Below are positions 3,595-37,477 of a DNA stretch of 37,477 nt, piece by piece (the first letter of the stretch is position 1; each line of letters begins with the position of its first letter). A program made the position numbers and the translations under genes. The notes beneath the pieces were generated by a model, which searched no databases, was not told where the DNA came from, and was given only the letters and a program-made list of their open reading frames with translations. The stretch covers positions 1 through 37,477 of the forward strand of contig JAUIJD010000045.1 in NCBI GenBank assembly GCA_030431475.1, in the 5' to 3' direction. The DNA comes from Verrucomicrobiia bacterium (GTDB lineage Bacteria; Verrucomicrobiota; Verrucomicrobiia; Verrucomicrobiales; Akkermansiaceae).

Positions 3595-4482
3595 ATGATC
3601 TGGGAGTTCATCCAGAAGAACTGGCGCTACGGCATTGAGATCCTGATCCTGAGCATCGGGATCTATCAGATCTATCGTGCCTTCAAGGCGACCCGCGGCG
3701 CCCGCATCCTGGTGGGCCTGATGGTCATCCTGCTGGTGCTCACCGCCCTGCTGCAGCTCTTCAAGTTCCAGGTCATCAGCTTCATCGTCACCCGCGGTCT
3801 GCTGGTGCTCCTCATCGCGCTCCCGGTCATCTTCCAGCCGGAGATCCGTACCGCGCTGGCCCGCGTCGGCAGCAGCCGCTGGCTCGATTGGTTGCTGCGC
3901 AACGACCGCCGCCAGATCGTCTTCCTTGAAAGCCTCGAGCAGGCCGTCATGGCCCTCTCGAAGAAACGCATCGGCGCGCTCTTCGCCATCGAGCGGAACA
4001 TCGCGCTCAAGGCCCAGCAGGAAACCGGCGTCACCCTCAGCGCCGACTTCACGCCCGAGCTGGCGATGTCGATCTTCTTTCCCAAGTCCCCGCTCCACGA
4101 CGGCGCGGTGATCCTCGCCGACGAGAAACTGATCGCCGCGGCCTGCGTGCTGCCGGTCAGCCAGAAGGAACTCAGCGACCGGTCGATCGGCCTGCGCCAC
4201 CGCGCCGCGATCGGGCTGACCGAGGAGACCGACGCGGTCTGCGTGGTCGTCAGCGAGGAGACCGGCTCGATCTCCCTGTGCTCCGACGGCCACATCGAGC
4301 GCAACCTGAGCAGCGAGGACTTCAGCGAGCGAATGGAGGACATCTTCCTCAACAACAACAGCAACGATGAGAAAAGCGTTTCGGAAGAACTGGGGGCCGA
4401 AGATGATGTCGCTGATGCTGGCGACGGCGATCTGGATGCTGATTCAGAAGTATCTGGAGACGAACGGAATGTGGGAGGTTGA
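3595..4482 (+). CDS. cdaA: Diadenylate cyclase (c-di-AMP synthase), CdaA/DacA type
   Basis: 295 aa. It joins two ATP molecules into cyclic di-AMP, a second messenger that controls potassium and osmotic balance and cell-wall functions. Three N-terminal membrane segments lie at about residues 13-30, 37-53 and 58-80. They are followed by the DAC domain with the catalytic motifs DGA (169-171, in PLHDGAVIL) and RHR (201-203, in GLRHRAAIG). Both motifs are intact, so activity is expected. The family usually ends near residue 250-275. Here an acidic, low-complexity tail (about 256-295) overlaps the next gene in another frame for 116 bases and looks overprinted. There is no SD before the ATG. The next gene encodes a CdaR-like anchor, as expected for a cdaA operon. 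Confidence 0.95.
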   Translation: MIWEFIQKNWRYGIEILILSIGIYQIYRAFKATRGARILVGLMVILLVLTALLQLFKFQVISFIVTRGLLVLLIALPVIFQPEIRTALARVGSSRWLDWLLRNDRRQIVFLESLEQAVMALSKKRIGALFAIERNIALKAQQETGVTLSADFTPELAMSIFFPKSPLHDGAVILADEKLIAAACVLPVSQKELSDRSIGLRHRAAIGLTEETDAVCVVVSEETGSISLCSDGHIERNLSSEDFSERMEDIFLNNNSNDEKSVSEELGAEDDVADAGDGDLDADSEVSGDERNVGG

Positions 4483-4699
4483 GGAACCGCCCCGCGCCCA
4501 GCCCGCCCCGCAGGACGAACAGCTCCGCGATCTCGAGTCGCAGATCGAGGAGCTGAAGGGGCAGGTCGTGACCCTCGAAGATCAACGGCGCCTGCTCGAG
4601 GAACAGCGGCGGCGGGAAGCCGAGGCGCGCCCGGAACCCGAGCCCGCCCCGGAGCCGGCGGACCAGCCCGAAAACTCCGAGAACCCCGAAGCACCATGA
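4367..4699 (+). CDS. CdaR-like membrane anchor without YbbR domains, coiled coil
   Basis: 110 aa. The N-terminus (RKNWGPKMMSLMLATAIWML, one membrane helix at about 12-28) resembles the first segment of CdaR/YbbR proteins, the partners that modulate CdaA. Instead of the usual YbbR repeats, it continues into a charged coiled coil (about 50-87, many Glu/Arg/Gln) and a Pro/Glu-rich tail. The gene starts inside cdaA, overlaps it by 116 bases in a different frame, and ends in an ATGA overlap with bioD, so translation is probably coupled on both sides. The inferred role is a minimal CdaA partner or membrane tether. The link rests on the short N-terminal similarity and the position, not on a recognised domain. 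Confidence 0.7.
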   Translation: MRKAFRKNWGPKMMSLMLATAIWMLIQKYLETNGMWEVEEPPRAQPAPQDEQLRDLESQIEELKGQVVTLEDQRRLLEEQRRREAEARPEPEPAPEPADQPENSENPEAP

Positions 4700-5319
4700 G
4701 CTGGTTCGTCACGGGCACCGACACCGGCGTCGGCAAGACCTACTTCTGCAGCCTGCTCGTCCGCGCGTTGCGCGAGGCGCGCGTCGATGCCGTCGCCTAC
4801 AAGCCGGTCTGCTGCGGCGAGCGCGACGACGCGGTCCGGCTCGCCGAGGCCTCGGGCGGCCTCGACCTCGACACGGTCAACCCGCTGTGGCTGCAGGCAC
4901 CCGTTGCGCCCCAGGTCGCGGCGATGCTTTCCAATGCCGAGATCAACCCGGGCTCGCTCGTCGCCACCGGCAAGATGCTGGAGAAGGATCACCAGAAGAT
5001 GGTCGTCGAGGGCGCCGGCGGCTGGAGGGTGCCGCTGGCCAAGGGCTACGACATGGCCGACCTCGCCACCGACCTCGCCCTGCCGGTGATCGTGGTCGTC
5101 GCCAACCGTCTCGGCGCGCTCAACCACACCATTCTCACCGTCGAGGACATCCGCGCCAGCGGGCTTGAAGTCGCCGGCCTCGTTCTCAACAACCTCCAGG
5201 AGGAGCAGGACACCGCCGCCGTGACCAATCGCGGTGTGATCGAGGAACTCACCGGCGCCCCGATTCTCACCGAGATCATCCACGGCCAGGATTTCGTGGA
5301 CGTCGAGGCGTTCCTCTGA
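4696..5319 (+). CDS. bioD: Dethiobiotin synthetase
   Basis: 207 aa, slightly shorter than the usual 220-240. It closes the ureido ring of dethiobiotin from 7,8-diaminopelargonate, CO2 and ATP, the second-last step of biotin synthesis. The P-loop GTDTGVGKT is at residues 7-15, the conserved KPV follows in AYKPVCCG, and EGAGGWRVPL is the glycine-rich loop typical of BioD. The start overlaps the preceding stop (ATGA), giving coupling to the cdaA operon. No other biotin genes are in the window. The gene ends 4 bases from the convergent gene at 5324. Confidence 0.93.
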   Translation: MSWFVTGTDTGVGKTYFCSLLVRALREARVDAVAYKPVCCGERDDAVRLAEASGGLDLDTVNPLWLQAPVAPQVAAMLSNAEINPGSLVATGKMLEKDHQKMVVEGAGGWRVPLAKGYDMADLATDLALPVIVVVANRLGALNHTILTVEDIRASGLEVAGLVLNNLQEEQDTAAVTNRGVIEELTGAPILTEIIHGQDFVDVEAFL

Positions 5320-29541: not shown

Positions 29542-30834
29542 ATGAACGTCGACACCTTCAACCGCCGCCGTTTCCTTGGCGCTTCCGCCGCCACCACCGC
29601 CGCCTTCGCTTTTCCCTCGGTCGTCCGTGCGGCCGGGAAGAACGCACCGCTCAAGATCGGCCTGATCGGCTGCGGCGGGCGCGGCACCGGCGCCGCCGGC
29701 CAGGCGCTGGAGGCCGACCCGGACGTGACGCTCACCGCCCTCGGCGACGCCTTTCCCAAGGCCATCACCAACTCGCTGCGGGGCCTCAAGAAGTACGGCG
29801 AACGCGTCGATGTGCCCGAAGAGCGCCGCTTCACCGGCCTCGACGCCTTCCAGAAGGTGATCGACTCCGGCGTCGATGTCGTCCTGCTCGGCGCCCCTCC
29901 CGGATTCCGGCCGCAGCACCTCCGCGCGGCCGTCGAGGCCGGGGTCCACGTCTTCGCCGAAAAGCCGATGGCCGTCGATGTCGCGGGCGTGAAGTCGGTG
30001 ATGGAGTCGGCCAAGCTGGCGAAACGGAAGAACGTCGCGATCCAGCACGGCTTCTGCTGGCGCTTCGCCCCCGGCGTGCGCGAGCTCTACGCGAAGATCC
30101 TCGGCGGGGACCTCGGCCGCGTGACGTCGGTCTATGGCACCTTCATGGTGTCCCCGCCGAAGCCGCTCCAGCCCGGCATGACCCGGCCCGACGGCATGAG
30201 CGACGTCGAGTGGCAGATCCGCTGGTGGACGAACTTCGAGTGGACCTCCGGCGGCCCGCTGCTCGAGCAGGCGGTCCACACCGTCGACAAGGTCGCGTGG
30301 GCCATGGGCGACATCGCACCCGTCGCCGCCGTCGCCAACGGAGGGCGCGCCACCCGCACCGACGCCGGCAACGTCTACGACCACTACAACATCGCCTACG
30401 AATACCCCGGCAACGTCTTCTGCCACATGGGCCAGCGCCAGTTCCCGGGCTGCCACTCCGAGGTCAACGACCGCATTTTCTGCGAGAACGGCATGGCCCT
30501 CGCCCCGGGCCGCCCGACGATCTTCGCGCCCGACGGCAGGAAGCGCACCTGGGTTTACCGCCCCACCCCCGGCCAGCCGCAGAACATGTACCAGGTCTGC
30601 CACAACGAACTCTTCGCCGCCCTGCGCCAGGGCGAGATCATCAACACCGGCGAGTACATGGCGAACTCGACCATGCTCGGCCTGATGGGCCGCGAGGCCG
30701 CCCACACCGGCCAGCGCATCACCTGGGACCAGATGTGGAAGGCCTCCCAGGACCTCGCCCCCGACACCCTCGCGATGGACGACGCCTTCCCCGTCCCCGC
30801 CGCACCGGTCCCCGGAAAGCACAAGCTTGTCTGA
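29542..30834 (+). CDS. Tat-exported Gfo/Idh/MocA-family oxidoreductase (second copy)
   Basis: 430 aa. The Tat signal is FNRRRFLGASAATTAAFAFP (start at residue 6). The Rossmann motif is GLIGCGGRGTG (40-50) and EKP is at 140-142 (FAEKPMAVD). The substrate domain has GGPLLEQAVHTVD, with the His commonly used in catalysis. It differs clearly from the minus-strand copy at 26709, so the two are unlikely to be a recent duplication. An AGGAGG lies 9 bases before the ATG, one of the few good SDs in the window. It probably oxidises a sugar or polyol in the periplasm. Confidence 0.9.
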   Translation: MNVDTFNRRRFLGASAATTAAFAFPSVVRAAGKNAPLKIGLIGCGGRGTGAAGQALEADPDVTLTALGDAFPKAITNSLRGLKKYGERVDVPEERRFTGLDAFQKVIDSGVDVVLLGAPPGFRPQHLRAAVEAGVHVFAEKPMAVDVAGVKSVMESAKLAKRKNVAIQHGFCWRFAPGVRELYAKILGGDLGRVTSVYGTFMVSPPKPLQPGMTRPDGMSDVEWQIRWWTNFEWTSGGPLLEQAVHTVDKVAWAMGDIAPVAAVANGGRATRTDAGNVYDHYNIAYEYPGNVFCHMGQRQFPGCHSEVNDRIFCENGMALAPGRPTIFAPDGRKRTWVYRPTPGQPQNMYQVCHNELFAALRQGEIINTGEYMANSTMLGLMGREAAHTGQRITWDQMWKASQDLAPDTLAMDDAFPVPAAPVPGKHKLV

Positions 30835-30837
30835 GCC

Positions 30838-31028
30838 TTGGAGTGCGGAGGCTCTTGTCCATCGAAGCTTCAGCGAAGTCGGATGCCTCCGCTTTTGAAC
30901 GACCTTCGGAAATGGCTTCTCCACAAGTCGCGCATGGGGACGCGAGCGCTTCTCCGGCCTCTCGGGCCCGCTGAAGTCGCCGAGGTCACCCGTCGCTCGC
31001 AAGAGGCGGCAAGCCACCCGCACTCCAA
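30838..31028. repeat. Miniature element with 11-bp perfect terminal inverted repeats
   Basis: The ends are TTGGAGTGCGG and CCGCACTCCAA, 191 bp apart. Inside the left end, GCGGAGGC (30845-30852) pairs with GCCTCCGC (30885-30892). It carries no credible gene, and it fills nearly all of the 234-base gap between the oxidoreductase and the FGE-like gene. It looks like a MITE or REP-type element. Confidence 0.65.
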
Positions 31029-31068
31029 AACCTCGACGCCCACCGACATCCTTCCTACCACTCCCACC

Positions 31069-32175
31069 ATGAACCGCACCCTGCTGCTGCTCGCCAGTCC
31101 GCTCCTCGCCGCCGGCGACGAACTCCCCCAACCCGAGTTCCTCCCGGTCACCAAGCAGATCCACGCCGTGGTCACCGAAAAAGGCGGTCCCGATTCCGCC
31201 GAGGCGATGAAGCCCTACACCGAGGCCGTGCCGCGCGTCGAGGAAGGCACCATCGACATGGTCCCCATCCCCGGCGGCACCTTCACCATCGGCACCCCCG
31301 AGGGCGAGGAGGGCCGCAACGACGACGAGGGCCCGCAGCGCAAGCTCGAGATCGCCCCCTTCTGGATGGGCAAGCACGAGATCACCTGGGACGTCTACCG
31401 CGCGTTCATGGAAAACAACATGTCGCGCAACAAGGACGGCACCCTGAACCGCGACTCCGACCTCATGACCTCCGAGGCGCCCGAGGCGAAAGGCGACGAA
31501 ACGCTCGTCGACATCGTCTCCCAGCCGACCCCGCCCTACCAGCCGATGCACTTCGAGATGGGCGAGGGCTACGACGCCGGCTGGCCGGCCATCGCCATGA
31601 CCCAGCACGCCGCCTCGAAATTCTGCGAATGGCTCAGCGCCCAGACCGGCCACTACTACCGCCTGCCCACCGAGGCCGAGTGGGAATACGCCTGCCGCGC
31701 CGGCACCACCACCCCCTGGTCCTTCGGCGACGACCCGTCGCAGATCGACGACTACGCCTGGACCATGGACAACTCCGATTTCACCTACCAGCAGATCGGC
31801 AAGAAGAAGCCGAACCCGTGGGGGCTCCACGACATGCACGGCAACGTCGCCGAGTGGTGCCTCGACGCCTACCTGCCCGACGCCTACGCCAAGTGGGAGG
31901 ACGGCGCGAAGAACCCCTGGCACCGCGCCACCAGCCGCTACCCCCGCGTCGCCCGCGGCGGCCATTATTTCGACGGCGGCCCGGAAAGCATGCGTTCGGG
32001 CATCCGCATCGCCTCGGACATCGAATGGAAGAACCTCGACCCGCAGAACCCGAAGTCGATCTGGTACCACACCAGCAACATGTGGATCGGCTTCCGCATC
32101 GTCCGCCCGCTCGAGACCCCCGAGGTGGAAACCATGCACACCCTGTGGAACACCGGCCCCGGCACCCTCGAGTAA
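31069..32175 (+). CDS. Secreted formylglycine-generating-enzyme-like (SUMF1 fold) protein
   Basis: 368 aa with a short signal peptide (MNRTLLLLASPLLAAG). The FGE-sulfatase fold is clear: MVPIPGGTFTIGTPEGE (64-80), MGKHEITWDVYRAF (100-113), YYRLPTEAEWEYACRAGT (196-213), WGLHDMHGNVAEWCLD (251-266) and VARGGHYFDGG (294-304). True FGE has cysteines in this last region; here GHYFDGG has none, so it is probably not a sulfatase-activating enzyme. Many bacterial FGE-like proteins have other or binding roles. It is the first gene after the TIR element, with no SD (leader CTACCACTCCCACC). Confidence 0.85.
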   Translation: MNRTLLLLASPLLAAGDELPQPEFLPVTKQIHAVVTEKGGPDSAEAMKPYTEAVPRVEEGTIDMVPIPGGTFTIGTPEGEEGRNDDEGPQRKLEIAPFWMGKHEITWDVYRAFMENNMSRNKDGTLNRDSDLMTSEAPEAKGDETLVDIVSQPTPPYQPMHFEMGEGYDAGWPAIAMTQHAASKFCEWLSAQTGHYYRLPTEAEWEYACRAGTTTPWSFGDDPSQIDDYAWTMDNSDFTYQQIGKKKPNPWGLHDMHGNVAEWCLDAYLPDAYAKWEDGAKNPWHRATSRYPRVARGGHYFDGGPESMRSGIRIASDIEWKNLDPQNPKSIWYHTSNMWIGFRIVRPLETPEVETMHTLWNTGPGTLE

Positions 32176-32190
32176 CGGCGCACCGGGCGT

Positions 32191-32219
32191 GAAGGAGCGC
32201 CGGTCTTCCGACCGGCATC
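32191..32219. repeat. GAAGGAGCGCCGG hairpin repeat (family 2)
   Basis: GAAGGAGC leads into a perfect 7-bp hairpin GCCGGTC-TTCC-GACCGGC (32199-32216). It lies between the FGE-like gene and the MFS gene and may also help end transcription. A related copy lies at 34513. Confidence 0.55.
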
Positions 32220-32249
32220 CCCCATCCCCGGTCCGCCCCCTCCTCACCC

Positions 32250-33479
32250 ATGACTCTCCCGCCGCCCGGACAGTTCGATTTCTCCCAGCAGCGGCGGACC
32301 TTCCGGCTCGAGCTCCTGCGCTCCTTTCCGCAGGGCTTCGTCGAGACCGCGATGGCGACCTTCGCGGTCTTCGTCGCCATCCGCATCTTCGAGCTCCCGG
32401 CGTGGATGAAGAGCGCCATCCTTGCCTCCGGCAGCGTCGGCCTCCTGCTCAGCCTCTTCGTCGTCCAGTTCATCCGCCGCCGCGGCTGGACCGTGAACAA
32501 CGTCGCCGCCGGATTCTGGTGCCTTTCGGCCGCCGGCTTCGGCCTCGCCGCCGCCTCGCCGGAGCACCCCCACCGCTACTTCACCGGGATCTGCCTCGCC
32601 TTCGTCTTCCTCGCCTCGGCCTCGCCGCTGATGGCGCAGATCTACCGCAAGCACTACGCCGACGAAAACCGCGGCCGGCTCTTTTCCTACGCCTCCCTCA
32701 CCCGCGCCTGCACCGTCGCCCTCGGCGGATGGGTCCTCGGCCTGTGGGTCGAGAAACAGGGCTTCTCCCCGCTCTTCGCCGCCTACGCCGGCGGCACGCT
32801 GCTCATGGCCCTCTGCGTCCGCGCCATGGCCCCGGTGCGCCTCCGCGCCTCCCACCGCATCCGCTGGTTCGACGCCTTCTCCCACGTCGGCGAAAACAAG
32901 CCCTTCGCCAAGCTGCTGGTGATGTGGATGCTGGTCGGCCTCGGCAACCTCATCTCGTGGGCCCTGTTCGTCGAGTTCATCGGCAACCCGGCCTACGGCT
33001 TCGGCTTCGATGCCGACCGCTCCGGTTTCATCACCAGCACCGTGCCGATGCTAGCCTTCATCGTCACCGTCGTCCCGTGGGGAACGGTCTTCGACAAGCT
33101 CCCCTTCTACCGCGTCCGCGGGATGGTGAACCTGTTCTTCCTCGCCGGCATCCTCATCTACTACCTCGGTAGTAGCCTCACCACCCTGTGCCTCGGCATC
33201 GCGCTGCACGGCATCGCCCGCTCCGGCGGCAACATCCTGTGGATGCTCTGGACCACCCGCTTCGCCGACGAGGAACGCCTCAGCGAGTACCAGAGCGTCC
33301 ACTCCTTCCTCACCGGCGCCCGCGGCGTCATCGCCCCCTTCATCGCCTTCGCCTGCGTCGAGCACCTCGGCCCCACCGCCGTCGCCGTCTTCGCCTCCGC
33401 CCTGCTCATCGCCGGCACCCTGATGATCATCCCGGAAATCCGCGCCGAGTTCCGACAAAAGCCGGCCACTTCTCCATAG
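32250..33479 (+). CDS. MFS-type transporter
   Basis: 409 aa with about 11-12 membrane helices. The central basic loop (RKHYADENRGRLFSYASLTRACT) and the second-half loop (DKLPFYRVRGMVNLFFLAG) fit the major facilitator superfamily. The first part (PQGFVETAMATFAVFVAIRIF) resembles transporters of unknown substrate common in PVC genomes. The stop codon lies inside a 9-base tandem repeat that also fills the gap to apbE. The substrate cannot be deduced. Confidence 0.82.
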   Translation: MTLPPPGQFDFSQQRRTFRLELLRSFPQGFVETAMATFAVFVAIRIFELPAWMKSAILASGSVGLLLSLFVVQFIRRRGWTVNNVAAGFWCLSAAGFGLAAASPEHPHRYFTGICLAFVFLASASPLMAQIYRKHYADENRGRLFSYASLTRACTVALGGWVLGLWVEKQGFSPLFAAYAGGTLLMALCVRAMAPVRLRASHRIRWFDAFSHVGENKPFAKLLVMWMLVGLGNLISWALFVEFIGNPAYGFGFDADRSGFITSTVPMLAFIVTVVPWGTVFDKLPFYRVRGMVNLFFLAGILIYYLGSSLTTLCLGIALHGIARSGGNILWMLWTTRFADEERLSEYQSVHSFLTGARGVIAPFIAFACVEHLGPTAVAVFASALLIAGTLMIIPEIRAEFRQKPATSP

Positions 33480-33507
33480 GTCCCATGAGTCCCATAGGGC
33501 CCATCCC
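33472..33507. repeat. 9-base tandem repeat (TCCCATAGG type)
   Basis: Four units occur in a row: CTCCATAGG, TCCCATGAG, TCCCATAGG, GCCCATCCC. The first unit contains the stop codon of the MFS gene, and the array ends 15 bases before the apbE start. Confidence 0.6.
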
Positions 33508-33522
33508 CACCAGCCCCGCCCC

Positions 33523-34449
33523 ATGAAACTCCTCGCCCTGCTCCTGCTCGCCGCCCCGCTCGCCACGGCCGACACCCGGCACCAGTTCTCGCGGCCGCTG
33601 ATGGGGACCACCTTCTCCATCACCTGCGATCACCCCGATCCCGCCCTCGCGGAAAAGGCCGCCGACGAGGCCTTCGCCGCCGCCGCGGAGATCAACGCCG
33701 TCGCCTCCGACTACGACCCCGACTCGGAGCTCTCCCGGCTCTCCGCCGTCCCCGTCGGCCGCCCCGTCGAGCTCTCGCCCACCCTCTACGAACTCCTCGA
33801 CACCGCCCGCCGCACCGCCGAGCTCACCGACGGCCGCTACGACCCCACGCTCGGGACGCTCACGCGCCTGTGGCGCGAGACCCGCCGCACCCGCACGCTT
33901 CCCGACGCCGAAACCCTCGCCGCCGCCCGGGCCGCCACCGGCTGGCGCCACTACACGCTGGATCCGGACCAGCGCACCCTCACCCTCGCGGTGCCTGGCA
34001 TGCGCTTCGACCTCGGCGGCATCGCCAAGGGCTACGCCGCCGACCGCATGCTCGCGGTCATGCGAAAACACGGCATCCCCCGCACCTCCATCGTCGCCGG
34101 GGGCGACATCGCCGCCGGCGACGCCCCGACCGGCCGCGACGCCTGGAAGGTCGGCCTCAAGACCTTCGACAAGGAGAAGCCCGACGAGGTCATCGATCTC
34201 GAAAACGCCGCCGTCTCGACCTCCGGCGACCTTCACCAGTTCGTCGAGATCGACGGCGTCCGCTATTCCCACATCCTCGATCCCGAAACCGGCCTCGGAC
34301 TCACCGAACCGATCGCCGTCAGCGTCATCGCCCCCCGCGCCACCCTCACCGACCCGCTCGCCACCGCCGCCTGCGTCGCGGGCGGGGACAAGGCGAAGAA
34401 GCTCCTCGAATCCTGGGGCGCCACCGACGTCCGGATCCGAAAGCGGTGA
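33523..34449 (+). CDS. apbE: FAD:protein FMN transferase (ApbE/Ftp)
   Basis: 308 aa with a signal peptide (MKLLALLLLAAPLATA). It covalently attaches FMN to Thr/Ser of redox proteins, typically subunits of Rnf or Nqr, outside the cytoplasm. Family motifs: RPLMGTTFSITC (24-35), FDLGGIAKGYAADRM, AGGDIAAGD, AAVSTSGDLHQF and YSHILDPETGLG. Mg2+/FAD-binding residues in these blocks are all present. No Nqr/Rnf genes are in the window, so the target lies elsewhere. There is no SD (GCCCCGCCCC before ATG). Confidence 0.95.
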   Translation: MKLLALLLLAAPLATADTRHQFSRPLMGTTFSITCDHPDPALAEKAADEAFAAAAEINAVASDYDPDSELSRLSAVPVGRPVELSPTLYELLDTARRTAELTDGRYDPTLGTLTRLWRETRRTRTLPDAETLAAARAATGWRHYTLDPDQRTLTLAVPGMRFDLGGIAKGYAADRMLAVMRKHGIPRTSIVAGGDIAAGDAPTGRDAWKVGLKTFDKEKPDEVIDLENAAVSTSGDLHQFVEIDGVRYSHILDPETGLGLTEPIAVSVIAPRATLTDPLATAACVAGGDKAKKLLESWGATDVRIRKR

Positions 34450-34512
34450 TCCTCGCACCCACCGCCGACGCCATGCCCCCGATCGCTTCGCCAATCTTGA
34501 ATTGAGGGATCC

Positions 34513-34566
34513 GTGCGAAGGAGCGCCGGGTTTACCCCGGCTGGAGCCCGAGCGCCACCTCCGCAC
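34513..34566. repeat. GAAGGAGCGCCGG hairpin repeat with inverted ends (family 2)
   Basis: It shares GAAGGAGCGCCGG with the copy at 32191. The core hairpin is GCCGGG-TTTAC-CCCGGC (34525-34541). The ends GTGCGAAGG and CCTCCGCAC are an imperfect inverted repeat. Confidence 0.5.
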
Positions 34567-34666
34567 GAAGGGCTCAACCCTTGCGTCCCTTGTCTTCGTC
34601 GGCACAGACCGGCTGATGAAAAGATCCTGAACACCGCATCACCACCCCCGGAGCGCAACCCCGGCC

Positions 34667-34926
34667 CTACCCGCCGCCGAAGAGGATTCCGAGAATGACG
34701 GCAACCAAGCCGAGTTGAAGCACCAGGAACAGGCGGCACAGCGCCAGCATCCCACCGTCCTTCCGCTTCCTGGCGAGCTCCGTCGCCTGCTGCCGGTCGA
34801 CCCCATCGCCCGCCCGAAATCCGCGCCGGTGATGCGGCCCTGCCGATGACGCAGGCAGTACGGCCGAATCGCCCCCAGCCAAAGCACCACGAGCAATACC
34901 GGAATGATGACCAGGAGCACCCCCAT
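34667..34926 (-). pseudogene. Frameshifted gene for a small two-helix membrane protein
   Basis: Two overlapping frames make one sensible protein. From ATG 34926 comes MGVLLVIIPVLLVVLWLGA...GADFGRAMG, then the frame must change at the G run (CCCC on the plus strand, 34801-34804). It continues as VDRQQATELARKRKDGGM...LVLQLGLVAVILGILFGGG to TAG at 34667. One extra G would restore an 86-aa protein with a membrane helix at each end and a charged middle. This is either a real one-base deletion or a homopolymer error. It lies on the same strand as the cassette genes to its right and may be an old cassette. Confidence 0.6.
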
Positions 34927-34980
34927 CAGATCAGCTTCGACTTCCCCGGATGCATCGGTCTCCCCCCGCACTCGCCGATC

Positions 34981-35063
34981 TTGAAACCGGCGACCTCCCG
35001 GTTCTGGAATCTCCCGGGGAGGTCAAAGGCCGCTGTCAGGGGACGTCCTGATCCGGCTTTCAT
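34981..35063 (-). other. Degenerate attC-like site (attC5)
   Basis: On the minus strand it begins ATGAAAGCCGG, passes through CAGCGGCCTTTGACC and ends CGGTTTCAA. The first half aligns with the intact attC at 36915 (AAGCCGG then CAGCGGCCTT at the same spacing). Its R'-like end GTTTCAA equals that of the next site (35698). It encloses the hairpin GACCTCCC/GGGAGGTC. It is shorter (83 bp) and has lost the AAC core. It starts 10 bases after the stop of the gene at 35074. Confidence 0.45.
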
Positions 35064-35073
35064 TGAAAATTCC

Positions 35074-35670
35074 CTATTCTTCCAGCCCATATCGTTCTCG
35101 ATAGGCGCGGATCCCCTTGTCGTAGCGCTCAAACACCTCTCGATCCCACTCCAGCATGCTGGTGGTCCACGGATCGTCCGAATCGTAGTTGACCGTCAGA
35201 TTGCGGTGGTAGCGGTCGAGAGCCTCCTCCCGAAAGTGAAGCGCCTGTGCGTAGCAATAGTGGCGGAGGTGAAGATTCAGGCATGAAAATCCGATGGCGA
35301 ACCCGATGAAGAGAGACACCACGAACACCCGTTTCCAAAGCCGCGGAACTCTCCGGGTCCCGCCCAGCACCGCACACAGGGCGAACACCGACAAGGCGAT
35401 CGAGAATGCAAGAAAGCCCTCCGGGATACTCAGCTGGAAGGGGTCGGAGCTCGTGGTGTAGAACCAAAGATTGGAGCCATCATACGCGAAACACGCGAGT
35501 GTCGTCACGAACTGCAGCCAAGTCAGGCTCCAAAGCGAATAGGCGTTCAAAGCCGTAAGCATCGTGGCTTGCCAAGGCCAACGAGCGAGGACAGGGCGCC
35601 TGAGACCGAACGTCACCCGCCTGGCACTCGCCTCGTCGCTCAATGGAGGGAAAAGCAAACGAGCAGGCAC
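35074..35670 (-). CDS. Three-helix membrane protein, possible cassette gene
   Basis: 198 aa with a GTG start; an internal ATG 36 codons later is an alternative. It is not recognised. Membrane helices lie at about 38-62, 84-103 and 113-132, and the last third is a soluble charged tail (HLRHYCYAQALHFREEALDRYHRN...WDREVFERYDKGIRAYRERYG). It lies 33 bases inside the boundary of the attC at 35698 and ends just before a degenerate attC, so it may be an integron cassette gene (717 bp cassette). Base composition is lower in GC than the core genes. Confidence 0.6.
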   Translation of the reverse strand: MPARLLFPPLSDEASARRVTFGLRRPVLARWPWQATMLTALNAYSLWSLTWLQFVTTLACFAYDGSNLWFYTTSSDPFQLSIPEGFLAFSIALSVFALCAVLGGTRRVPRLWKRVFVVSLFIGFAIGFSCLNLHLRHYCYAQALHFREEALDRYHRNLTVNYDSDDPWTTSMLEWDREVFERYDKGIRAYRERYGLEE

Positions 35671-35697
35671 GGCATCGGATTCTTACTTGGCACAAGG

Positions 35698-35815
35698 TTG
35701 AAACGCAACTGACCCGACCCTCGTGGCGCCCAGCGCGATTCGTTGGGCGGATTCTAGTCGCCAAAACCGTCTGCGAAAAGGGCGCTGTAAGGGATCCCCC
35801 AGTGGTTTGTTCTGC
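35698..35815 (-). other. Integron attC-like site (attC4)
   Basis: On the minus strand R'' is GCAGAAC (35815-35809) and R' is GTTTCAA (35704-35698). The interior has CGCC and GGCGCC arms and shares GGCGCCACGAGGGTCGG with the other sites. The box GCAGAAC is complementary to GTTCTGC at the start of cassette C. Just outside it a near-identical copy of the end (ACCTAAC then AAACCACTGGGG) is duplicated and carries the stop codon of the cassette gene. Confidence 0.6.
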
Positions 35816-35827
35816 CCCAGTGGTTTG

Positions 35828-36253
35828 TTAGGTGTCGTAGTAGCCATCCCAGGGGTCGAAGAATGCCATGTAGTTGCCAGGCTGAAGCTCGATTCCTCCA
35901 GTCTCTTCCTCGGGAATGAAGCCAAACTCAGTTCCGTTGTGATCGGTCGAGAATGGTGCTACCCGGATGTCGCAGAATGTGGCTCCTTCCAGTTCACTCA
36001 TTCGGCGATCGAGCAGGGTTCGTGCTGAATCCTTATCCATCTCCGCTCGCGAGCCTAGATCATCGATTCGTGCTCCTCGGAATTTCCCGTCCGGATCGAA
36101 AAGGAATACGGCAAGAAACTCAGCACCGGGATCGTCGCCTCTTGCGGGTCGGAACGGGGTAGTTACGAAAAACTGCGTTCCATCGGGCAGCTTGCCAATT
36201 CGATCAGCGTGGTAGTCGTCATGCTTGATTGGAAACGTTTCGGGGAAGCCCAT
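35828..36253 (-). CDS. Cassette C gene, unknown protein
   Basis: 141 aa; not recognised. It starts MGFPETFPIKHDDYHADRIG 15 bases inside the cassette and ends PWDGYYDT. It is acidic, soluble, with no signal or membrane helix. Predicted beta strands (TQFFVTTPF, AEFLAVFLFDPDG) and a helix (DKDSARTLLDRRMSELEG) suggest a small alpha/beta domain. The TAA stop lies in a duplicated R''-like box. GC is clearly lower than in the chromosomal genes to the left. The function is unknown; acidic small cassette proteins are sometimes immunity or antitoxin-like, but nothing here shows it. Confidence 0.75.
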   Translation of the reverse strand: MGFPETFPIKHDDYHADRIGKLPDGTQFFVTTPFRPARGDDPGAEFLAVFLFDPDGKFRGARIDDLGSRAEMDKDSARTLLDRRMSELEGATFCDIRVAPFSTDHNGTEFGFIPEEETGGIELQPGNYMAFFDPWDGYYDT

Positions 36254-36262
36254 GGTTTCTTG

Positions 36263-36392
36263 GCAGAACGTCGAAGGCTAGGCGACCCGGGTCTCCATGG
36301 CGGCCAGTCCTAGTTTCGGTGGAATCTCTACCAGCCCGATCCCTGCGTAACAAGGCCGCTGATCAGGGTCGCTCTACGCCGGCTTGTTCGCC
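36263..36392 (-). other. Integron attC-like site (attC1)
   Basis: 130 bp. On the minus strand R'' is GGCGAAC (36392-36386) followed by AAGCCGGCG, and R' is GTTCTGC (36269-36263) preceded by CTTCGAC. It shares CAGCGGCCTTGTT and CCGCCATGG with the other sites. It separates the genes of cassettes B and C. Confidence 0.75.
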
Positions 36393-36410
36393 TTTAGTCG
36401 ATTCTGGCGG

Positions 36411-36782
36411 TCACTCGACACCTTCAAATCGATCCCGATCCTTCCAGAATGGGCAGTGTGGACAACTCTCTCCCTCAGGATAATCAACGCCCTCCTCATG
36501 TGGGCATCCAAAGACCTTCTCAACCATGATGAGCGATCGAACCTCATGTTCGCGAAGTCGTGCGAGGATCGACTCCTGGGTTGGGACATCGAACCGGATA
36601 TCCTTGTCCTCCTGAAAGTAGCGGTGGATCATCGCCTCTTCCTCGTCGTCGGTCAGAAAAATTCCCAGAACCGCTTTGGTCGCACGTTTGTCGTCGGGAC
36701 CATAAAACGCGAGTGAGGCCCGAGGCAGGCCTTGGTCCCCAGCCTTCGCTTTCTTCCGGAGGTTCGTGATTGGTTTGGCCAT
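36411..36782 (-). CDS. Cassette B gene, unknown protein with Cys/His cluster
   Basis: 123 aa from ATG 36782, 15 bases after the cassette boundary; the frame continues upstream only through attC2. It is not recognised. It begins basic (MAKPITNLRKKAKAG), contains ASLAFYGPDDKRATKAVLGIF, and ends with a possible metal site: CPH, then CPHC (FGCPHEEGVDYPEGESCPHC). There are no membrane segments. The stop lies 18 bases before the R'' of attC1. GC is low relative to the core genes. Confidence 0.75.
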   Translation of the reverse strand: MAKPITNLRKKAKAGDQGLPRASLAFYGPDDKRATKAVLGIFLTDDEEEAMIHRYFQEDKDIRFDVPTQESILARLREHEVRSLIMVEKVFGCPHEEGVDYPEGESCPHCPFWKDRDRFEGVE

Positions 36783-36791
36783 CTGATCTGT

Positions 36792-36921
36792 GGCGAACGT
36801 CTGAGGCATGGCGCGACGCCCCCAATGGCGGCGCTCCCGTGACCTCTTGAGAGGAGAAAAGCACCAAAACGGATTTTCAACAAGGCCGCTGGTAGGCGTC
36901 GCCATCGCCGGCTTGTTCTGC
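36792..36921 (-). other. Integron attC-like site (attC2)
   Basis: 130 bp. On the minus strand R'' is GCAGAAC (36921-36915) followed by AAGCCGGCG, and R' is GTTCGCC (36798-36792). Inner arms pair: GCGACGCC (36813-36820) with GGCGTCGC (36895-36902), and GCGGC with GCCGC next to them. This gives the long imperfect hairpin expected of attC. It contains the end of cassette A's gene. Confidence 0.78.
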
Positions 36922-37227
36922 TTCTTTGAGATTCTTGAGGGTCCGAGGTCTGGGGCCAATTACTGCATCAAGTTCATCGAGCAACAGGGCAATATCGAAC
37001 ATCGATCGCGAGCGATAAAAATCGACCTCACCCGCATCGGTCTGCAACCAAAGATGAATCAGCCTGCGGAACCAGTGGCGCTTCGCCTCTAGAGTGATCC
37101 CGGTGACTGCCGATGAGGGAATAGTCCTCTGAGGTCTAGCAAGTTCACACACAAGAGAATCTGGTGTGACCGCCACCTGGACATTCCGCCTCGGTCCACC
37201 GTCAATTGAGATCAACTTGCCGATCAT
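36877..37227 (-). CDS. Cassette A gene, unknown protein ending inside attC
   Basis: 116 aa; not recognised. The ATG lies 11 bases inside the cassette boundary. It starts MIGKLISIDGGPRRNVQVAV and contains EAKRHWFRRLIHLWLQ and FDIALLLDELDAVIG. It looks like a small soluble alpha/beta protein. The last 15 or so codons (KEAEQAGDGDAYQRPC) are encoded by attC2 itself, with the stop inside the site, a known habit of cassette genes. GC is lower than in core genes. Confidence 0.72.
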   Translation of the reverse strand: MIGKLISIDGGPRRNVQVAVTPDSLVCELARPQRTIPSSAVTGITLEAKRHWFRRLIHLWLQTDAGEVDFYRSRSMFDIALLLDELDAVIGPRPRTLKNLKEAEQAGDGDAYQRPC

Positions 37228-37232
37228 TTCCA

Positions 37233-37355
37233 GCAGAACGTCAAAGGAATGGCGCGCCGACCCTCATGGCGGCGCTCCGACTCCAGTTGCCGGAGTGAAC
37301 CACCAAACACGATCTCCGACAAGGCCGCTGTAAGGTGTCGCCATCTCCGACTTGT
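37233..37355 (-). other. Integron attC-like site interrupted by an intron (attC3)
   Basis: R' is GTTCTGC on the minus strand (37239-37233). The site carries GGCGCGCCGACCC, CATGGCGGCGCTCCG, ACAAGGCCGCTG and TCGCCATCTCCGACTTGT in the same order as attC2. At TTGT (37352-37355) the expected TCTGC is missing and intron-like sequence begins. Without the insertion the site would be about 128 bp. Confidence 0.75.
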
Positions 37356-37477
37356 GTATGCCCATCATGGGCGTGAACCAAAGGGGGTTCAAGTCCCCCG
37401 TGCGATGGAACGATGAAAGAAGAAAGCACTACCAGAAGCCAACTGCGGAAGGGCGACCGACCGTGGGAAAGCAGGCT
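37356..37477 (+). mobile_element. 5' end of a group IIC intron inserted in attC
   Basis: The first 122 bases are present. They begin GTATGCCCATCATGGGCG, then a stem GGGGG-TTCAAGT-CCCCC (37383-37399), then GTGCGATGGAACGATGAAAG, and CAGAAGCCAACTGCGGAAGG. The order of elements follows the start of the Oceanobacillus iheyensis group IIC intron as I remember it (GUGUGCCC, AUGGGUG, AGGG...GUCCC, AGCC, AAGGGUG). Insertion is at TTGT within the attC R'' core, opposite in direction to the cassette genes, as reported for IIC-attC introns. The rest, including any reverse transcriptase, lies outside the window. Confidence 0.78.

Follow-up and report, generated by a model that had tools for sequence, protein, structure and literature searches.

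The right end of the window, by which we mean the whole stretch of 37,477 nucleotides analysed here (contig C88 of a fragmented assembly with a 4.73 Mb genome in 109 contigs), carries an array (35698–37355) of four related sites of 118–130 bp with three minus-strand cassettes between them, much as the original prediction of three minus-strand genes separated by related sites had it. All four sites are written on the plus strand and belong to the building set of the covariance model R1 described below: site C (37233–37355; 120.3 bits), which as written is the bottom strand of the attC and has its 1L box split by an intron; site B (36792–36921; 115.2 bits); site A (36263–36392; 95.5 bits); and the more diverged site D (35698–35815; 67.1 bits). 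Sites B, A and D also follow the box rule set out below. The cassette array predicted at the window end is there, but its extent has to be corrected: site C stops at 37355, and what follows is a group II intron, which had been missed, rather than an R″ box.

Cassette 1 (36877–37227) holds an open reading frame (ORF) of 116 amino acids, and cassette 2 (36411–36782) one of about 123 amino acids with a presumed ATG start, the listed ORF beginning at a TTG at 36959, past site B. Cassette 3 (35828–36253; 141 amino acids) encodes a conserved hypothetical protein with 184 relatives in a protein search; four organism names occur among the 120 relatives listed (Terriglobales, Phycisphaerales, Pyrinomonadaceae and Limnocylindria). 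A further minus-strand ORF, of 198 amino acids, left of site D (35074–35670) is probably the gene of a fourth cassette. No Pfam match was obtained for the genes of cassettes 1, 2 and 4, nor at E 0.01 for any of the five window ORFs searched; PADLOC returned one weak match (E 0.036) among four window ORFs, which was not used, and an Rfam scan of 30000–37477 gave zero matches of any kind. Integrase and attI are both absent from the window itself. A 15-bp direct repeat (CCCCAGTGGTTTGTT) at 35797–35811 and 35815–35829 duplicates the 1L end of site D and creates a second GTT core (GTTAGGT), overlapping the end of the gene at 35828–36253.

Farther left, a plus-strand stretch at 34975–35040 was considered as a possible decayed attC remnant of the fourth cassette. 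R1, run with filters off, scores it at 5.8 bits (E 0.11 over 1 kb), which is not significant; its likeness to the other sites was otherwise judged by eye, and it was rejected as a fifth window site. The last host gene in the order common to relatives, identified by synteny with the genomes G048 and G093, lies on the plus strand at 33523–34449 and presumably resembles ApbE. Synteny with these two genomes ends at 34434–34439, and neither their matching stretches nor the surroundings of that gene in G101 and G064 contain any site. Gene order is therefore not fixed in all relatives; a fixed order had been named in advance as speaking against a cassette array. As the array is absent at the matching place in relatives, either this lineage gained it or the others lost it.

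The strongest regularity of the array lies in its boxes. On the plus strand, site C starts GCAGAAC, site B reads GGCGAAC…GTTCTGC, site A GCAGAAC…GTTCGCC and site D TTGAAAC…GTTCTGC. The box at the start of each cassette is the complement of the 1L box of that cassette's own site (C to B, GTTCTGC; B to A, GTTCGCC; A to D, GTTCTGC), exactly so in 3/3 window cassettes, and in A, B and D the two boxes within a site differ; both observations had been made in the original prediction. Random box pairs match at all four variable bases in about 11% of cases, so that 3/3 would arise by chance with a probability of ∼0.0014 if the pairs are independent. Over 131 sites from five genomes (the genome of the window, G030, G048, G085 and G093), the same-cassette pair matches exactly in 102 of 107 cases, and three of the five cassettes that break the rule still match at three of the four bases. 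As controls, boxes within the same site match in 12/122 and wrong-neighbour pairs in 9/106; where the candidate boxes differ, 91/95 obey the cassette rule and 0/95 the same-site rule. The input was 131 of the 137 model matches. Six were left out: L040, L164, L165 and L166, each the sole site on its contig stretch; L152:723, which duplicates the entry L151:15223; and the truncated L152:10445. One or both boxes are missing from nine of the 131 sites used, in two cases owing to an intron. Boxes were anchored on the TTGTT nearest the model end; using the final TTGT of the padded tail as anchor (74/108 same-cassette matches, 132 sites) misplaced many boxes and was dropped. Excision and insertion between G and TT, the integron mechanism, leave behind a box rule of this kind.

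The sites also share a fold. R1 was built here from 12 sites of the window's own genome; it yields 19 sites in that genome, 12 of which are the building set, and 137 matches over the fetched arrays of the five genomes. The consensus stem of the 12 sites comprises 23 pairs, 13 of them with change on both sides. Paired cells make up 88.1% in these sites; shuffles give 72.5%, and sliding the partner by one to three columns leaves no more than 50.6% (at most 42.4% for one column). The covariation score of 0.406, versus 0.162 in shuffles, was reached by 0 of 500 shuffles. In the alignment of all 137 matches, which is itself fitted to the structure, paired cells stand at 84.0% and the covariation score at 0.515; two of five measures are not above shuffles there, with pairs changed on both sides equally high in 488/500 shuffles and further pair types in 405/500. 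AAC is in place in 134 of the 137 aligned matches, a count in which only the three misses are informative because the anchor demands AACG. Like attC, the sites are imperfect palindromes with conserved GTT/AAC cores, and the folding proposed as a check alongside the original prediction revealed a fold conserved with compensatory change. A lone, decayed attC-like site on C42 (L040 6420–6555; 70.5 bits), with no other site in 13 kb, is excluded as support.

The R′ boxes mostly consist of GTT, then C or G, then K, S and Y, with C at position 4 in 85 of 134 boxes. Unlike those of usual integrons, they do not conform to GTTRRRY, which fits 10/134, whereas GTTNNNY fits 127/134; the suspicion that this is an unusual site family, departing from the consensus beyond GTT, is supported by these counts.

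The group II intron enters site C at TTGT/T, and its 5′ end occupies 37356–37477 on the plus strand, where the contig stops inside it. The same 5′ sequence (122–125 bases) also terminates contigs C76 and C81, and a group II intron's 3′ part lies at the ends of C22, C47 and C103. Each of these three 3′ ends matches RF00029 (47.9 bits; gathering score 40) as far as the junction, a match to domain V/VI in a family that does not tell intron class. The 5′ pieces (C88, C76 and C81) and the 3′ pieces (C22, C47 and C103) are probably those of one intron, and the former would pair with the latter. Within attC, the 5′ exons (C88 and C76) end in TTGT, and the 3′ exons start TCTGC (C22) and TCGAC (C47), completing the box predicted from the start of the same cassette; the 3′ exons of a second, seemingly 5′-truncated intron, TCGGC on C76 and TGGCG on C65, likewise complete the box, giving 4/4 attC 3′ junctions that fit. 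C81 (L042 8620–8757) and C103 (L054 5190–5316) carry the same intron outside attC; on C81, the 60 bases preceding it have a folding energy of −24.0 kcal/mol, a value obtained without a shuffle control. C81 and C103 may be neighbours and, if C81 joins C103, C88 would join C22 or C47.

According to PMC7923331, group IIC-attC introns insert into R″ on the bottom strand of attC, at TTGT/T and against the direction in which cassettes are transcribed, and are also found at putative terminators; the same paper gives a Verrucomicrobia reverse transcriptase as the best match (80%) of one such intron. The attC insertions here lie in R″ at TTGT/T, on the bottom strand and opposite to the cassettes, and they resemble this group in the TTGT/T position at C88, C76, C22 and C47 and in the insertion outside attC at C81/C103. 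Judged by its target and ends, the window-end intron would be of the group IIC-attC type. The assembly yielded neither the body nor a reverse transcriptase of this intron; a single TIGR04416 match (C65), below cut-off, seems by eye to be part of the second, 5′-truncated intron. Upstream of the truncated second intron on C76 lies an Rfam match to Acido-Lenti-1 RNA (L041 6993–7038; 43 bits, gathering score 37).

The genome encodes an integron integrase. An apparently complete intI, a 325-amino-acid ORF, lies at C75:43429–44367 and matches TIGR02249 at 387 bits (cut-off 265); absence of any IntI-type recombinase from the genome, which had been named as evidence against an integron, is thus not what we observe. 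The protein aligns over 309 residues (E 5.8e-73) with 2a3v, the Vibrio cholerae integrase deposited as IntI4; in this alignment R, K, H-x-x-R, H and Y are retained where the catalytic residues should lie. Among the 120 matches listed, its nearest named relative is “integron integrase [Luteolibacter sp. AS25]” (71%), the next named ones being Verrucomicrobiota and Akkermansiaceae records; a 66% relative was found in a Verrucomicrobiia metagenome-assembled genome. These relatives point to a verrucomicrobial host, probably one of the Akkermansiaceae in GTDB terms. Upstream of this intI is an attI-like ACTGTT and then the contig end, which leaves the C75 array unplaced. A second intI, on C60, is broken (3744–4919 of L036, which is C60:1–9000). 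It is in pieces: an N-terminal-like ORF (3744–4013; no Pfam match), a GIY-YIG ORF (4087–4362; PF01541, 49 bits) and the catalytic part (4359–4919); short repeats observed by eye on either side of the insert hint at a mobile element. By eye also, C60 and C70 have in common a ∼120 bp repeat with a palindromic end (CCGAGGTTTTCCGACAG) just left of the cassettes (L036 1–120 and L039 about 228–355), which may explain the break in C60.

Of the 195 genomes of the family that were searched, 72 match TIGR02249 at E 1e-40 or better, and 64 of these exceed the cut-off. The ten genomes of the genus with intI contain 19, 32, 61, 70, 17, 20, 6, 17, 8 and 5 sites and the eight without it 4, 0, 1, 4, 0, 0, 0 and 0, where at most 150 candidates were scored per genome, so that large counts may be minimum values. 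Over these 18 genomes, the number of sites follows the presence of intI (one-sided Mann-Whitney p 1.9e-4), the genome from which the model was built being itself one of the ten with intI. Up to three intI matches occur per genome in the genus. In G048, which is a single contig, arrays adjoin all three intI genes in the canonical divergent layout.

Besides that of C75, at least six arrays of the window's genome have an attI-like head, one beside the broken intI (C60) and five with none found. These heads are of two types, type I on C60, C47 and C93 and type II on C22, C65 and C70; type II was sought in the whole genome and type I in the fetched loci. A type II element lies ∼0.9 kb from an intI in G093 (C182), which marks it as a true attI; a leader of ∼280 bp is common to C22, C65 and this intI-adjacent attI (C22 at 69%). 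The attI box equals the 1L box of the first attC in nine of ten heads; in the tenth (C93) the four variable bases are kept and GTT is changed to GTA. A −10 TACAAT scored best in 4/6 type II heads, with poor −35 matches, in a check too loose to lean on. In G048, a lone type II attI (position 9681 of L205, G048:2335000–2352000) has no attC or intI in the surrounding 17 kb. On C22 and C47 an attI-like site (ACTGTT) is reached within two or three cassettes, and an intI match is absent from both (one search of the whole genome and a second of C22 in full and the terminal 18 kb of C47). The window array would then start at the attI on C22 or C47, with its integrase not in cis. Since the likely continuations reach attI without a detected intI, it is probably served, if at all, in trans.

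Considered together, these data make it very probable that a chromosomal integron has its cassette array here, as first proposed, and that the window end is the distal part of it; the box rule, the folding sites, a working covariance model and the genomic intI all support this. Each unit would comprise one small minus-strand gene and one attC of 118–130 bp. The plus strand, the bottom strand of each attC, would fold into a hairpin, which an integron integrase would recombine between G and TT of R′, such that cassettes could be excised in circular form and reinserted at attI or at a different attC. The C75 IntI, or a past integrase, may be what moves the window cassettes in trans, and a group IIC-attC intron appears to have entered site C. 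Counted against this model are the five of 107 cassettes that break the box rule, the diverged site D, R′ boxes off the published consensus and a window without integrase or attI.

That the sites are a dispersed family of palindromic repeats between small genes, and not an integron, would suit their being repeated, palindromic and intergenic, but would leave unexplained why 102/107 cassettes follow the box rule when the same-site alternative has 0/95, and also the association with intI and the attI-headed layout; we give this reading hardly any credence. A full integron in cis, with the integrase gene slightly further right, past the intron, is what the orientation of the array leads one to expect, since it places attI and intI on the right, and it is also the layout seen in G048; the run of intI, attI-like ACTGTT and contig end on C75, with its array unplaced, is compatible with it. 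It is nevertheless unlikely, because three 5′ intron ends (C88, C76 and C81) face three 3′ ends (C22, C47 and C103), and because C22 and C47, which continue in the attC box, reach attI without a detected intI, an argument that intron copies missing from the assembly would weaken. With the contig breaking in the intron and the likely continuations on C22 or C47 lacking a detected intI, the placement of the integrase to the right in the original prediction is probably wrong.

Within the preferred reading of a distal cassette array, the sites could be true attC descendants that became immobile after local loss of the integrase and are now decaying. The lack of an intI match on C22 and C47, the broken intI of C60, the divergence of site D, a next site that is not significantly recognisable and the intron within site C are all in keeping with such decay, whereas the conserved stem and box rule retained by sites A, B and C, and an apparently complete intI in trans, speak against it; on balance we lean somewhat away from this reading. 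With equal reserve, we suggest as a tentative extension of the cassette-array reading an integron distributed over the genome, in which at least six attI-headed arrays lie apart, most without a cis integrase, and all depend on the single intact C75 IntI, which has its own differently built attI, and in which the R-box rule of the genus has become approximately GTTSKSY instead of GTTRRRY, same-cassette complementarity being all that is retained.

The superintegron of Vibrio cholerae consists of small attC-bounded cassettes in one orientation, with attC sites that are long imperfect palindromes and a cassette box rule. The system described here is like it in having an IntI above the TIGR02249 cut-off and close to 2a3v. 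In contrast, it comprises several small separate arrays, and most of the attI-headed ones are without a detected intI. It also resembles a CALIN in being an attC cluster with no intI detected on its contig, nor on C22 or C47, one of which the window would be joined to. CALINs are attributed to off-target insertion, intI loss or rearrangement in PMC8618304. Unlike CALINs, several arrays here retain attI, and this retention, with the leader common to the intI-adjacent attI of G093, would fit intI loss or separation better than off-target insertion. Knowledge of integrons rests mostly on Proteobacteria. PMC8618304 describes integrons as particularly prevalent in that phylum, includes Verrucomicrobiota among integron phyla and describes integrase-less clusters; PMC10500605 gives the same phylum list. 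No paper on these verrucomicrobial arrays was among the literature matches listed, in a search with most subscription journals outside it. The array belongs to a genuine integron, of a kind already known in Verrucomicrobiota, with an apparently distributed layout. Its relevance lies in a verrucomicrobial genus in which one genome can have as many as 70 attC-like sites, intI matches number up to three per genome, near-identical cassettes sit in distant arrays of one complete chromosome, and attI-headed arrays occur without a detected integrase. The genus offers a natural test set for whether a single integrase can act in trans on several attI platforms, and for how freely R-box sequences can vary while 1L and the cassette start stay complementary.

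Cassettes are also shared between arrays. In G048, blocks of 0.6–1.3 kb are 99–100% identical between arrays 0.2 to 2.5 Mb apart, and the edges of these blocks coincide with attC sites in the pairs inspected. Two cassettes of the window's own genome have DNA matches in the arrays compared, the remaining ones having zero: one cassette of C60 has a counterpart in G030 with 87% identity over 436 bp, and the third cassette of C22 (L038 8241–8850) matches a G030 array (L160 81–645) at 70% over 567 bp.
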